Shown one piece after another: positions 18 through 32,284 of a stretch of DNA of 64,000 bases (within the stretch, counting starts at the first letter, position 1; each line of letters opens with the position of its first letter). The notes beneath the pieces were generated by a model, which worked only from the letters and a program-made list of their open reading frames with translations, did no database searches and was not told the DNA's origin. The position numbers and the translations under genes are program-made. The stretch comes from Flavobacteriales bacterium. GTDB taxonomy: Bacteria > Bacteroidota > Bacteroidia > Flavobacteriales_D > Parvicellaceae. The stretch spans positions 1-64,000 of the forward strand of contig JAGYKU010000004.1 in assembly GCA_018401455.1 (NCBI GenBank), in the 5' to 3' direction.

Positions 18-2714
18 CTAAACGCGAACACCGATAATACAGACATCATCTACCTGCTCGTGCTCACCTTTCCAATTTGTAAAAACATCATTTAATTTTT
101 GATGTTGTTCTTTCATGGATAAATTAGAAATGGAGATTAAATATTCTCTCATTTTTTTAACCATAAACTTTTTGCCTTTTTCTCCGCCAAACTGATCTTG
201 AAAACCGTCTGTTATGGTGTAGATTAAATCTCCTTTTTGTAAATCAACTTCTCCTCCAATAAATGGTTCTTTGTCATTTTCATGTTTACCAACGGGCATT
301 TTCTCTGGCTTAATTTCAATAAGTTCTTCATTTCGGATAATCCAGATAGGATTTTGAGCTGCTACATAAGTCATTTTCGTTTTATCAGGATTTATACTGA
401 TTAAACTTGCGTCCATTCCATCTTTTCCTCCTTCTGGGCTGCCGTCTTTTTTGAGGCGCTCAATGATTGTTTTTCGGGTATCGTTAAAAATTTCATTGGG
501 TTGAACCAGTCCTTTGTCAACTGCTTTTTCTATGGAGGAAATATTCAAAATACTCATAATAGCGCCTGGCACTCCGTGCCCAGTACTGTCTGCGTTTACG
601 ATTGCGAAATTTCCGTTTGTAAGTTTCCCAGCCCAGTAGAAATCTCCACTTACCACGTCTTTGGGTTGGAAGAAGACAAAATAACCGGGTTCGCTTCTCG
701 ATACATCCCGCTGTTGCGGTACACTCGAAGTGACCCCTAGGTTTGCGTCAAGCATCTCTCGTGATGCCAAAAAACTTCTTTGAATACGTTCAGCGTAGTT
801 AATGGAGTCGGTGATTTCTTTATGTTTTTCTTCTACTAAGTGTTTTTGTTGTTCTACAACTATATTTTTTTGAACCAATTCTTCTGTACGTTCTTCTACT
901 GTTTTTTCTAATTCTTTTTGGCGTTTGATAAGAGCGGCTGTTCGCCATTTGATCAGAATGAGTATGAGAATGAGAGCGAGGAGAACGCATAGCGATCTAA
1001 ACCACCAAGTGTGCCACCAAGGAGGATTTATAGTAAACGTATATTCAAACGGTTCACTCCATTCACCACTTTCACCAATGGCTCTGATTTGGAAAGCATA
1101 AGTGCCATACGATAAGTTACGATACTCTGCTTTGGCTTCTTTTGAAGGGTTACTCCAATTATCATTAAGCCCTAGCATTCGATAACTGTATTGTATTTTA
1201 TGCGGAGCAGACCAATCTATGGCAACAAAATGAAAGGTGAGGTGGTTTTTATCGTACGATAATTTTAAATTCAGTGGATAATTTTCAAATTTTTGTACAC
1301 CATTAAAGGTTATTTCATTTCCAAGGCTGTCTGTTATATTTCTATAATCAATAAATTGCTCGTTGATATCCAATTGCTTTAAATAAATGGCAGGTGGAAT
1401 TTGTGCTATGCTAAATTTATTCAAATCCAGCATTTCTAACCCTTTGCCTCCTCCCCACCAAGCGCGGTTTTTACTATCTATAAAGGCACTATTTGCAAAG
1501 AAGTCTAACGCCTTTAATCCATCTCCTTTTTCAAAAGTATGTATGGATATTTGTGGATTTTTTGAAACTTTTGTCGTTTCTTTTACTCCTGACTGTCGGT
1601 CAGGCAGGATTTGCGATTGCGTCCCAATATCAAGCGCAATAACGTTAAGCCCTTTTTCTGTCGCAATATATAGATTTCCGTTCCGATGACTATCGGAATT
1701 ATCTTCTAAGATGGACTGGACCCTATTATTTGAGAGACCTTCCTTTTCGGTATAATGCTTAAAGGTTTTACCATCGTATTTCGATACGCCTCCGCCAGAT
1801 GTACCGAACCAAATCCCTACACCGATCGGGACGCTTTTATCTTCTAAGATGGCCCAAACGTAATTATTTGAGAGGCCTTCCTTTTCGGTATAATGCGTAA
1901 AGGTTTTACCATCGTATTTCGATACGCCTCCGCCATCTGTACCGAACCAAAGGTTTCCACTTTTATCTTCTAAGATGGCCCTGACCCTATTATTTGAGAG
2001 GCCTTGCTTTTCGGTATAATGCGTAAAGGATTTTCCATCGTATTTCGATACGCCTCCGCCATATGTACCGAACCAAAGGTTTCCGCTTTTATCTTCTAAG
2101 ATGGACAAGACGTATGAGGAGTTCATGCCTTGGTCCACATCTAAGTATTGGAGGTTGGCAATGGCAGCATCTTTAAAGGCAGGAGGGAGTGCGGGCGTGG
2201 GTTGGGGCTGGATGGTGGGCACGGTTTTACCTTTGGCTGGAATAGGTATTCCTGTTTTTACCGTGTCGCCAGTGGAGTTAATAAGGTAATGTGTGGTGTC
2301 AATCCCTGCTACCGCCAAATGGGGGAGAGAAATCGGGATTGTGGTTAATGAGTCTTTGTTTACTGAAATTTTCGTAAGATTTTCGGGTATCTTATGGCGG
2401 TTGGGGTGGGCGTTGTAGGTGCTGCTAGAAGGTATATAAGGCACCACTTTGGGTTGTGTTACGCTATCGGGATGTATAACTTTTCCCATTGCAGGGATGG
2501 GTACTCCTGTAATCAAGGTGTCGCCACTTTCTAAAATGATGGGTTGTATGGTATCGCCTGATACGGGGTTAACTATATAACCACCTTCGGGTTTGGCATC
2601 AACACTTTTGGGTTGAGGAAAAAGCGGTGCGGGTGATGTTCCATCATCTTTTGGGCTGCGGTTGCAGGCTGCTGCAATGAGTAGTAATAGTATTGGGTAT
2701 GCTAATTTTTTCAA
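18..2714 (-). CDS. Lipoprotein sensor: two-component-regulator beta-propeller repeats, Y_Y_Y-like domain, TM, coiled coil, SpoIIE/PP2C-type phosphatase
   Basis: Lipobox-like LLLIAAACN; repeated ILEDKSGNLWFGTxGGGVSKYDGKxFTHYTEKxGLSNN; TM segment LCVLLALILILILI; C-terminal FQPKDVVSGDFYW...ADSTGHGVPGA...DGMDASL...DGFQDQFGGEKGKKF. Confidence 0.88.
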   Translation of the reverse strand: MKKLAYPILLLLIAAACNRSPKDDGTSPAPLFPQPKSVDAKPEGGYIVNPVSGDTIQPIILESGDTLITGVPIPAMGKVIHPDSVTQPKVVPYIPSSSTYNAHPNRHKIPENLTKISVNKDSLTTIPISLPHLAVAGIDTTHYLINSTGDTVKTGIPIPAKGKTVPTIQPQPTPALPPAFKDAAIANLQYLDVDQGMNSSYVLSILEDKSGNLWFGTYGGGVSKYDGKSFTHYTEKQGLSNNRVRAILEDKSGNLWFGTDGGGVSKYDGKTFTHYTEKEGLSNNYVWAILEDKSVPIGVGIWFGTSGGGVSKYDGKTFKHYTEKEGLSNNRVQSILEDNSDSHRNGNLYIATEKGLNVIALDIGTQSQILPDRQSGVKETTKVSKNPQISIHTFEKGDGLKALDFFANSAFIDSKNRAWWGGGKGLEMLDLNKFSIAQIPPAIYLKQLDINEQFIDYRNITDSLGNEITFNGVQKFENYPLNLKLSYDKNHLTFHFVAIDWSAPHKIQYSYRMLGLNDNWSNPSKEAKAEYRNLSYGTYAFQIRAIGESGEWSEPFEYTFTINPPWWHTWWFRSLCVLLALILILILIKWRTAALIKRQKELEKTVEERTEELVQKNIVVEQQKHLVEEKHKEITDSINYAERIQRSFLASREMLDANLGVTSSVPQQRDVSRSEPGYFVFFQPKDVVSGDFYWAGKLTNGNFAIVNADSTGHGVPGAIMSILNISSIEKAVDKGLVQPNEIFNDTRKTIIERLKKDGSPEGGKDGMDASLISINPDKTKMTYVAAQNPIWIIRNEELIEIKPEKMPVGKHENDKEPFIGGEVDLQKGDLIYTITDGFQDQFGGEKGKKFMVKKMREYLISISNLSMKEQHQKLNDVFTNWKGEHEQVDDVCIIGVRV

Positions 2715-3227
2715 ACTATAAATATTTTGATAGGTAAAAGTAGTTTAAAAATTTAAAAAGCAAAAATAAGTTAATGTTTTAGTGATTAAGGGTTGGCTAT
2801 TTAGTAGTTTAGTTATTGGCGGTTAGCTGTTAGTTTTTAGCAGTTGGCAGTTGGCTTTTGACTTTTAGTTATTTGCGGTTAATTGGGGCTTAAATAAAAT
2901 GATATCTCTAATACAGTTTTATGTCCTATCTCTTCAGTAACAATGAAAAGAAACGATATTACGAATAGTTCCCGCAGATTACGCAGATGTGCACGCCAGA
3001 ATAAATCGGCGAGATTTACGGGAGAAAAAATTTCCTCCCCCTTTATTACTCTACAAATGGGAATTAATATTCATGTCATTTTAACTTATGATGTAAATAT
3101 GAAATATTTACTCGATGTGACATTCAAATCTCTCTGTCCACTTCTACTTATAAATAAAGACCAAAGCGTCTTTGCTTGTGGAGAAGTCGCATAATGAAAG
3201 TTGGTTACCCAAAAATCAAAACCACGA

Positions 3228-5391
3228 ACATCAAGCCACGACTACTAAACGCGAACACTAAATGCGCACGCCTATAACACACACATCATCAATCTGTTCG
3301 TGACCTTGCACATATTCTTCAAGACATCGTCAATCATTTTTGTGATTTTGAATGGGTGCTTCTTGAATATTTAAGAATAACTTTTGAAATTGGCGCCTAA
3401 GAATTTTTTTTTGCCTTTTTCTCCACCAAATTGATCGGCATATCCATCAGTGAAAATATATACAGTGTCCTCTTTTTTTTCAATTCCAATGATTCCAACA
3501 TGTGAATGGATAAGGATTGGTATATTTTCCGATGGGCTGTTTGTCTGCTTTTATTTCAAAAAGATTGTAAATTTCTTGCTCTGTTTTATTGGGTTCCCAA
3601 TGACTTGGGCTGTTTTCATTGAGATTAGTGGCTGTTAGATTTCCTTCCGAAATTTTTCTTACAATCCAAATAGTTATGCACCAGCCCATTCTAACTTTGA
3701 AATATCATTTCCTTTTGGAATGCACAAATAGAAATATCCATTCCGTCTTTTACTTCGCTTTCACTTTTTTCAAATTGCTCAATTACTAATTCTCTTGTTT
3801 TATCTAAAACTTTAGCAGGATTTAATAATGAAAATTCTCGCACACTTCTGTTGAGTGCATTGTTGCATACAACACTTACCATAGCGCCAGGCACTCCATG
3901 TCCTGTACAGTCTGCTGCAGCGAAAAGTATTTTATTTCCTGTATCTTCCAACCAGTAAAAATCTCCTGCAATGATATCCTTGGGTTTGTATAGAACGAAA
4001 GCTTCGGGAAGTTTTTCTTGAAAAAATCTGTCAGAAGGCAAAATCGCTGTTTGGATTCTTTTGGCATAAGTAATACTGTCCATAATCTCAGTATTCTTTT
4101 CTTCCAAAACGTGTTTTTGCTCTAAAAGCACATGTTTTTGTTGCTCGATAATATGGTTTTTTGCCTCCATTTCGGCATGAGCCTTTTTCTTTTCAGTATA
4201 TCTTTTATATATTGCTCCAGCACCCAAAAGAATCATCAACAATATGAAAATTCCAGCCCAGACATAAATTTTGAACATCATTTCGCTGTGTTCTTTTTCT
4301 TGCTCCATCATCAAGATTTGGTCTTCTTGAATTTTTTGAGCCAACTGGTTTTCCATTTCTGCAATTTTCTTCGAAGCCTGATCGTTTCTCATCGCTTCGT
4401 TGATTTCGATAAACTTTGTTTGAAAATTAAAAGCAGTATTATACTCTTCTTTAATTGCGTGCAATTTTGCCAATTCGCTCAATGACAATCTCATTTCTTC
4501 ATTAGCACCAATCGATTCGGCAGTTTCGTAAGATTGAGTAATATAATGCAAAGCAGTATCAATCTGATTGAGTCCTTTGTAATTCAAACCAATATAATAC
4601 AAAGTTGCCGAAGTTCCTTGATCATCTTGTAAAGCCTCTTTTAAAGTTAGGGATTCAAACAACTTATTTAAAGATGCTTCATATTTTTTATCATGTGTCA
4701 AAACTTGACCTAATAAATCTAATGAAGAGGCGATAACATAATTATCTCCATTTTCTTTTCCTAATTCAAAGGCTATTTCTGCATATTTATTAGCTTCTGC
4801 AAAAGACTCTAAACTCATATATATCTGACTCATATTTACATAACTGTCAGATTGAGTTACTTTATCGCCATATTTTAATGCTTTTTCGAAATATTCTAAT
4901 GCTTTTTCGTAGTGCTCTTGCATGTAATTTATAGAACCCATTACATTATAACATTGAGCTAAACCATTGTAATTTTTGATAGCTTCAAACACCTCAATTC
5001 CTATAGTTAACTTTTCAAGCGCATCAGAATATTGCCCTTTTAAAAGAAAAATATACCCCATCGTTAAAGCTCCTTCACCCAAACCATTTTGATAGTTGAT
5101 TTTCTCAGCAATTTCCATTGATTTAGAGAGAATTTCTTCTCCTTTTTCGTATTCGTCAAGGTAGTAATATACGTTACCCATGTCGTTCATAGCATCCACT
5201 CTTTCGGGAGTATCGTCTTTGGAGATTTCCATTCCTTTTAAGGCATATTTTTGTGCTTCTAATGGGTCGTTGTTAATAGTATTTCCTACCAATTCGTGCA
5301 ATTCACTTGCTGTTTGGGCTATTAGGTAAACGGGCAATAACAACAGTATTGTCAAACCAATTTTAGAGGTGTAAAATTTAATTTTCTTCAT
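3228..5391 (-). pseudogene. TPR + TM + SpoIIE-type phosphatase sensor, 3' end decayed by frameshifts
   Basis: ORF 3691..5391 has TPRs and FVLYKPKDIIAGDFYWLEDTG...ADCTGHGVPGA...DGMDISICAFQK then stops; remainder continues in other frames (3480..3689 ...EIKADKQPIGKYT) and ends with a DDVCVIGVRI-like end near 3260. Confidence 0.75.
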
Positions 5392-14928: not shown

Positions 14929-15200
14929 TTAACCGCAAAGCACGCACTTGTATAGACCAAAGCGTCTATAAAGACTATTCGCAAAGGTTCACAAAGTTTT
15001 TTTTACCTAATATCATTTTCAAATTATTAACTCTAGTTTTTAGACTTCTCCACTTCGGTCGAAGTGACAAAAACATTATCAAATTAACAACTAAACATTA
15101 ACAATTAAACATTAACAATTAACCATTAACAATTAATCATTAACCATTACCTAATTATCTCATTTTTCCTATTTCAACTTTCAGATTTCTGTTTTCCCAT
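14929..15200. repeat. Intergenic composite repeat block, copy A (paralogous to 32069..32540)
   Basis: Shared order: TTTAACCGCAAAG, ACTTGTATAGACC[A/G]AAGCGTCT, TATCATTTTCAAATTATTAACTCTAGTTTTTAGACTTCTCCACTTCGGTCGAAGTGACAAAAACATTATCAAATTAACAACTAA, TAANNAY array, TTCNNAT array. Confidence 0.85.
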
Positions 15201-31993: not shown

Positions 31994-32284
31994 GAAAAAT
32001 ATTCTTCTGTAACAATTTACCAATTATTTCATATTTCAGTTTAACATCAAACATTATGTAATCTTTATTTAACCGCAAAGGACTCAAAGAATTTACGCCA
32101 AGTCCACACTTGTATAGACCGAAGCGTCTGTAAAGTTTTTTTATCTAATATCATTTTCAAATTATTAACTCTAGTTTTTAGACTTCTCCACTTCGGTCGA
32201 AGTGACAAAAACATTATCAAATTAACAACTAACCATTAACAATTAACCATTACCTAATTACTTCATTATCTATTTATCTCATTT

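Follow-up and report, generated by a model that had tools for sequence, protein, structure and literature searches.

A sensor-phosphatase gene in a Bacteroidia draft genome has very probably been lengthened by small palindromic elements, similar to REPs and Rickettsia palindromic elements (RPEs), which were inserted in frame and are tolerated in disordered loops. The gene lies in the window, that is, the whole stretch of 64,000 nucleotides that was analysed, which forms the start of contig C86 in an assembly of 3.06 Mb (82% complete, 151 contigs). The gene, its inserts and the repeats used for comparison are as follows.

18..2714, minus strand: host gene, encoding a protein of 898 aa (open reading frame and Pfam).
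688..735, minus strand: site A, a 48-bp in-frame insert, GGTCACTTCGAGTGTACCGCAACAGCGGGATGTATCGAGAAGCGAACC, adding 16 codons (homologue length excess, repeat family, tree and structural model).
1588..1608, minus strand: site B, the CTGCCTGACCGACAGTCAGGA region (LPDRQSG) in the linker after the propeller, with a 17-bp perfect palindrome at 1588..1604.
1681..1698, minus strand: site C, TTCCGATAGTCATCGGAA, a palindrome of 18 bp that takes the place of 3 bp in propeller repeat 4 (net +15 bp).
1814..1831, minus strand: site D, TCCCGATCGGTGTAGGGA, an imperfect palindrome of 18 bp that takes the place of 6 bp in propeller repeat 3 (net +12 bp).
1923..2105, minus strand: propeller repeats 1 and 2, with the empty sequence GAAGATAAAAG[C/T]GGAAACCTTTGG (repeat alignment).

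The host protein consists of a Reg_prop beta-propeller, a Y_Y_Y domain, a coiled coil and a phosphatase domain of the SpoIIE/PP2C type, with Pfam matches to SpoIIE (2.5e-20, residues 700-898), Reg_prop (1e-18) and Y_Y_Y (2e-13). The assignment of the phosphatase domain is backed by the presence of the invariant GDF, D.TGHGVPG, DGMD, DG..DQ and DD motifs. The initial annotation had reported palindromes at four places in this gene, and all four sequences were found where it had placed them and in frame; the one at site A, however, given as 694..734, belongs to an element with the larger span of 688..735. Their palindromic nature held for sites B and C, which have perfect stems, whereas site A folds only moderately and site D forms a poor hairpin (single-strand DNA fold z of -1.85, -2.8, -3.6 and -0.5 for A, B, C and D, respectively). 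As the fold of site A is moderate, this element is recognized by its family and not by perfect pairing. Hairpin counts were rejected as support, since the window contains about as many hairpins as shuffled sequence, with no excess over chance, and the case for the inserts therefore rests on comparison with homologues, sister repeats and repeat families. Homologues and repeat families provide this comparison for sites A, B and C, and sister propeller repeats provide it for sites C and D.

The site A element, which reads GGTCACTTCGAGT...TATCGAGAAGCGAACC, follows the linker helix and precedes the first strand of the phosphatase domain. From RIQ to GDFY the host protein has 51 residues where most homologues have 35, an excess of 16 codons, or 48 bp. 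In agreement with the proposed in-frame insertion, the closest homologues of the gene lack the insert; these insert-free relatives are homologues ~55-78% identical in the phosphatase domain and not strains of the same species. The palindrome belongs to a family of the form TTCGAGT...TATCGAGAA, and a search with the pattern TTCGAGTN{4,24}TATCGAGAA identified it in 57 of the 395 genomes of the class, with a maximum of 212 copies in G420 and only 0 or 1 match per genome for the reversed-pattern control. Four copies are present in the genome of the window (contigs C57, C66, C86, and C110), the three besides site A being located outside long genes. The initial annotation had named absence of the palindromes elsewhere in the genome as a refutation; this does not apply to site A, given its other copies, and very nearly applies to the exact sequences of B, C and D. 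The copy on C110, GGTCACTTCGAGTAATTCGCCAGTTGGCGAATTGTATCGAGAAGCGACC, has an outer frame almost identical to that of site A (GGTCACTTCGAGT...GTATCGAGAAGCGACC), with an inner stem that is different and yet complementary. Copies in G150 and G420 are mostly intergenic and often arranged as inverted pairs, and none of 31 copies fetched by pattern was clearly within a gene of at least 200 aa. The tags that precede the TTCGAG arm in this family are GGTC, TGTC and CGTC.

The same point of the phosphatase gene is occupied by inserts of several kinds. Members of the site A family are found there in L043, L050, L125 and L132, shorter TTCGAGC...GTCGAGAA elements in L126 and, as a tandem pair, in L128 and L134, a different palindrome family (GTCATGCTGAACTTGTTTCAGCAT) in L137 and L138, and CCACCTCTCCCCCTCCTCTGGAGGGGTCGGGGGAGGTGG in a paralogue from the same genome as the window (L024/L136). 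At this one point, the peptides are as unrelated as the palindrome families that encode them. A tree built from 102 phosphatase domains places the window protein beside the insert-free L029, L030, L107, L112 and L121 and apart from the L043/L050/L125/L132 clade, with the other insert types elsewhere again. Read from the sequences and this tree, insertion at this codon position of site A would have happened independently at least three to four times. The peptide VTSS...SRSE does occur literally in distant orthologues, namely the four carriers of the site A family, but because these form a separate clade their sharing of it speaks for a hot spot that has taken up inserts repeatedly. The recurrence of similar VTSS...SRSE peptides at site A in several genomes could also be taken to mean that these loop peptides are functional and were inherited from an ancestor of the phosphatase family, their palindromic DNA being incidental. 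We regard this as very improbable, given that the DNA matches intergenic repeats in this and other genomes, that the nearest homologues have no insert, and that unrelated palindrome families with unrelated peptides occupy the same point.

Longer inserts in the phosphatase domains compared were confined to three loops. Among 103 homologous domains, 39 of 39 inserts of at least 8 residues fall at site A (13), in the loop after GDFYWA (6) or in the loop between WIVRN and ELIEI (20). When scored for inverted repeats against dinucleotide shuffles, 15 of the 39 had p<=0.05 (2 expected) and 10 had p<=0.01 (0.4 expected); the others have either decayed or arisen in another way. The predicted structure of the host domain (mean pLDDT 89.4) has a pLDDT of ~53 and no predicted secondary structure across the site A insert, which has a helix (12-19) before it and the first strand (38-43) after it, and models the other two loops as turns between strands 51-57/63-71 and 150-154/157-161. 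The model is consistent with insertions surviving where the structure permits. The paralogue L024 (G000:C91:1-1064) has a Gly-rich site-A palindrome (GGVGGGGG) and a second insert of 29 residues in the ELIEI loop. Longer repeats of the CGTCATTGCGAG...CGCAATGACG type, partly decayed, were observed in the ELIEI or GDFYW loop of L075, L076 and L056, where translation continues through them in frame and yields 25-39 residues.

The 39-insert set was drawn from phosphatases and alone cannot demonstrate a preference for them. In G271, the pattern TTCGAGN{4,26}TCGAGAA has 13 matches genome-wide, reduced to 11 by leaving out two long-loop matches that are probably due to chance. Eight of the 11 are inside SpoIIE phosphatase genes, the phosphatase domains amounting to ~0.7% of this genome (34 domain matches, each ~720 bp long, against 3.4 Mb), and the other three comprise one match at C54 and two that cluster between genes where contig C94 ends. 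Some of these inserts are copies made by paralogue duplication, and the independent events are fewer than eight. That the SpoIIE loops of Bacteroidia are preferred homes of several unrelated palindrome families, either via targeting or through selection for a signal-tuning peptide, appears to us unlikely. If it were true, phosphatase genes would be a reservoir in which the elements outlast their loss elsewhere, as the share of G271 matches in these genes would illustrate.

Site B contains CCTGAC-TGTCG-GTCAGG (1588..1604), with a perfect 6-bp stem, and its exact pattern, CCTGACTGTCGGTCAGG, has a single match in this genome, which is site B itself. The proposal of in-frame insertion was corroborated here by the fact that LPDRQSG is present in no aligned homologue and by a related in-frame palindrome, CTGCCTAGTCGGCAGACAGGC, in a phosphatase of another genome (L128/L249 in G299), which encodes LPSRQTG versus LPDRQSG at site B. 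The G299 palindrome is nested inside an A-type element (TTCGAGC...GGAGTCGAGAA) in the loop after GDFYW, and CCTGCCAGCGGCAGGCAGG is found between genes in the genome of the window (L012:14792). Site B is probably a member of a dispersed family. Other homologues have sequences of their own between propeller and sensor: at L037:430 and L048:4907 the linker contains CCCTCTCC-AAAAAA-GGAGAGGG (SALSKKGEGE), and in L031 it contains the peptide LRPAQGD, which suggests that the site-B region, too, has been hit repeatedly. A search of viral contigs for exact B- and D-like strings returned few matches and was uninformative.

Sites C and D had been said to sit at the same point of successive propeller repeats, and the repeat alignment placed them within a few bases of each other, at a nearly identical point. 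Against the empty sequence of sister repeats 1 and 2, repeat 3 reads GATAAAAGCG-TCCCGATCGGTGTAGGGA-TTTGG, with 18 bp in place of GAAACC, and repeat 4 reads GATAA-TTCCGATAGTCATCGGAA-CGGAAATC, with 18 bp in place of 3 bp; the reading frame is kept at both. Site C has a perfect 7-bp stem (TTCCGAT-4-ATCGGAA), and its family (TTCCGATAGNNATCGGAA, with at most one mismatch) was identified in 108 of the 395 genomes of the class, including 97 matches in G425 with both strands counted, while the reversed pattern almost always gave 0. Nearly all inspected places of this family look intergenic. One member, TTCCGATAGTTATCGGAA in G425 (L199:1870-2856), is in frame in a housekeeping gene (NCBIfam ADP-glyceromanno-heptose 6-epimerase, E 6e-112) and encodes SDSYR versus SDSHRN at site C. 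The genome of the window has no exact copy of site C elsewhere. Site D, in which only 4 bp of the hairpin pair, had no close relative in the 1.9 Mb of sequence compared and no second copy in a 696-kb sample of the genome; it is the weakest of the four, an insertion or replacement with no family assigned. Both C and D are exactly 18 bp long and lie in nearly identical tandem repeats, a setting in which template switching is to be expected, and together with the lack of relatives for D this could indicate that replication made the palindromes on the spot, through template switching or duplication errors. Such an origin is improbable in our estimation, as families A and C are dispersed across many genomes with reversed controls near zero and the C110 copy has the outer frame of site A.

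The composition of the host gene is extreme for its genome: a GC content of 40.6% versus a mean of 34.0% (sd 2.5%) places it in the top 0.35% of 284 sampled ORFs, and its GC3 is in the top 1.1%. Taken with the absence of exact B and C elsewhere in the genome, and of D elsewhere in the 696-kb sample, this makes it possible, if doubtful, that horizontal transfer brought in the gene, or its 5' half, from a relative rich in these palindromes, where the insertions happened, and that this genome is a mere carrier. However, the nearest homologues by identity are from the same order and family, the paralogues L022 and L136 are GC-rich as well, and family A has other copies here. Horizontal acquisition would in any case alter where the insertions happened and not their nature. 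As exact B and C are single-copy in this genome, any activity of theirs here is putative, and import of the gene together with its inserts is possible.

Other repeated sequence was observed in the window. A second, tandem TPR-phosphatase gene (3236..5391, minus strand) has a truncated SpoIIE domain, with C-terminal SpoIIE matches that run on in other frames with stops, and has the appearance of a copy in decay; the sequence at its 3' flank (about 3219-3290) is similar to the contig start (1-50). The sequence CACTTCGGTCGAAGTG occurs twice, at 15051..15066 and 32189..32204, both intergenic and both embedded in a longer near-identical stretch of >60 bp.

Insertion of mobile palindromes remains the reading we favor, and a likely course of events would be that small, non-autonomous REP/RPE-like palindromes entered the gene at several separate times, with or without the loss of 3 or 6 bp, in such a way that the reading frame survived. 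The persisting copies would be those in surface loops and linkers, namely the pre-phosphatase linker (A), the post-propeller linker (B) and the turn of the propeller repeat (C and D), where they would be translated as short disordered peptides that are tolerated and possibly neutral. The same elements, as well as unrelated palindrome families, would have independently entered the same three SpoIIE loops in other Bacteroidia. Their mobility was presumably driven by a transposase. Canonical REPs accompany Y1 transposases with a YIxxNP motif. Three matches to PF01797 (Y1_Tnp) were identified in this genome, which is 82% complete, and the two of these proteins that were read (G000:C68:18309, L167, and C108:7196, L177) have the motifs YINNQ and YIKNQ instead. 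These two proteins resemble the subclass 1.2 Y1 enzymes (YIKNQKEHH), for which no link to REPs was made (PMC6006769). One of the two genes has GCTCCAGAGGAGC hairpins downstream, and as hairpins of this type are unrelated to the inserts, the Y1 transposases read from this genome are unlikely to be the mobilizer. PF01797 had no match in the element-bearing genomes G271, G299, G348 and G202.

Most descriptions of in-frame palindromic elements come from Rickettsia, and elsewhere such elements are described as rare oddities. Here, a single protein family provides, across many Bacteroidia genomes, naturally occurring sites in empty, fresh and decayed states at three defined loops and from several repeat families, which would allow tests of how selfish DNA becomes protein, of the rate at which a palindrome decays once it is coding, and of the effect of linker length in a signaling phosphatase.

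The host phosphatase domain belongs with the SiaA-type/SpoIIE PP2C phosphatases (PDB 6k4e, 5mqh), from which it would differ in its insert-bearing loops. RPEs are short palindromic repeats found in frame within genes and translated (PMC3733652), and the elements described here share with them the presence of an in-frame palindromic insert in a coding gene whose homologues are without it. The likeness to RPEs that the initial annotation saw holds for behavior, a short palindrome turned coding in a loop, but not for abundance: RPEs have many copies, many of them intragenic, whereas this genome has four copies of A and one each of exact B and C, and the elements are shorter or composite, mostly intergenic elsewhere and concentrated in one enzyme family. 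Family A in other genomes has the character of REP elements, in being a short, dispersed, mainly extragenic palindrome that forms inverted pairs, although its four copies in this genome fall short of the high copy number of REPs. With regard to mobilization, Y1 transposases of the TnpA-REP (RAYT) subclasses 2.4 and 2.6 of Bacteroidetes mobilize such palindromes, and REP insertion within tnpA-REP genes is reported for subclass 2.4 (PMC6006769); the two Y1 proteins read here include no YIxxNP-type enzyme. The GTAG/CGTC-tagged REPs are dispersed hairpins with hosts that include Bacteroidetes, and some lie inside ORFs (Di Nocera 2013, PMC3733652). The CGTC-tagged ones have a CGTC or TGTC tag beside a stem of 8-9 bp with a loop of 4-5 nt, and differ in arm and loop layout from family A, with its variable inner stem and longer outer frame. 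REPs at about the same site in recB of two Xanthomonas species (PMC3733652) are a small precedent for shared insertion positions. Unlike the GTAG/CGTC-tagged REPs, the elements considered here have hit three loops of one phosphatase family repeatedly, and several families have done so. In the literature searched, with few subscription journals covered, palindromes were nowhere described from the loops of SpoIIE phosphatases: REPs and RPEs that lie in frame are already known, and it is the loop hot spot that is new to that literature.
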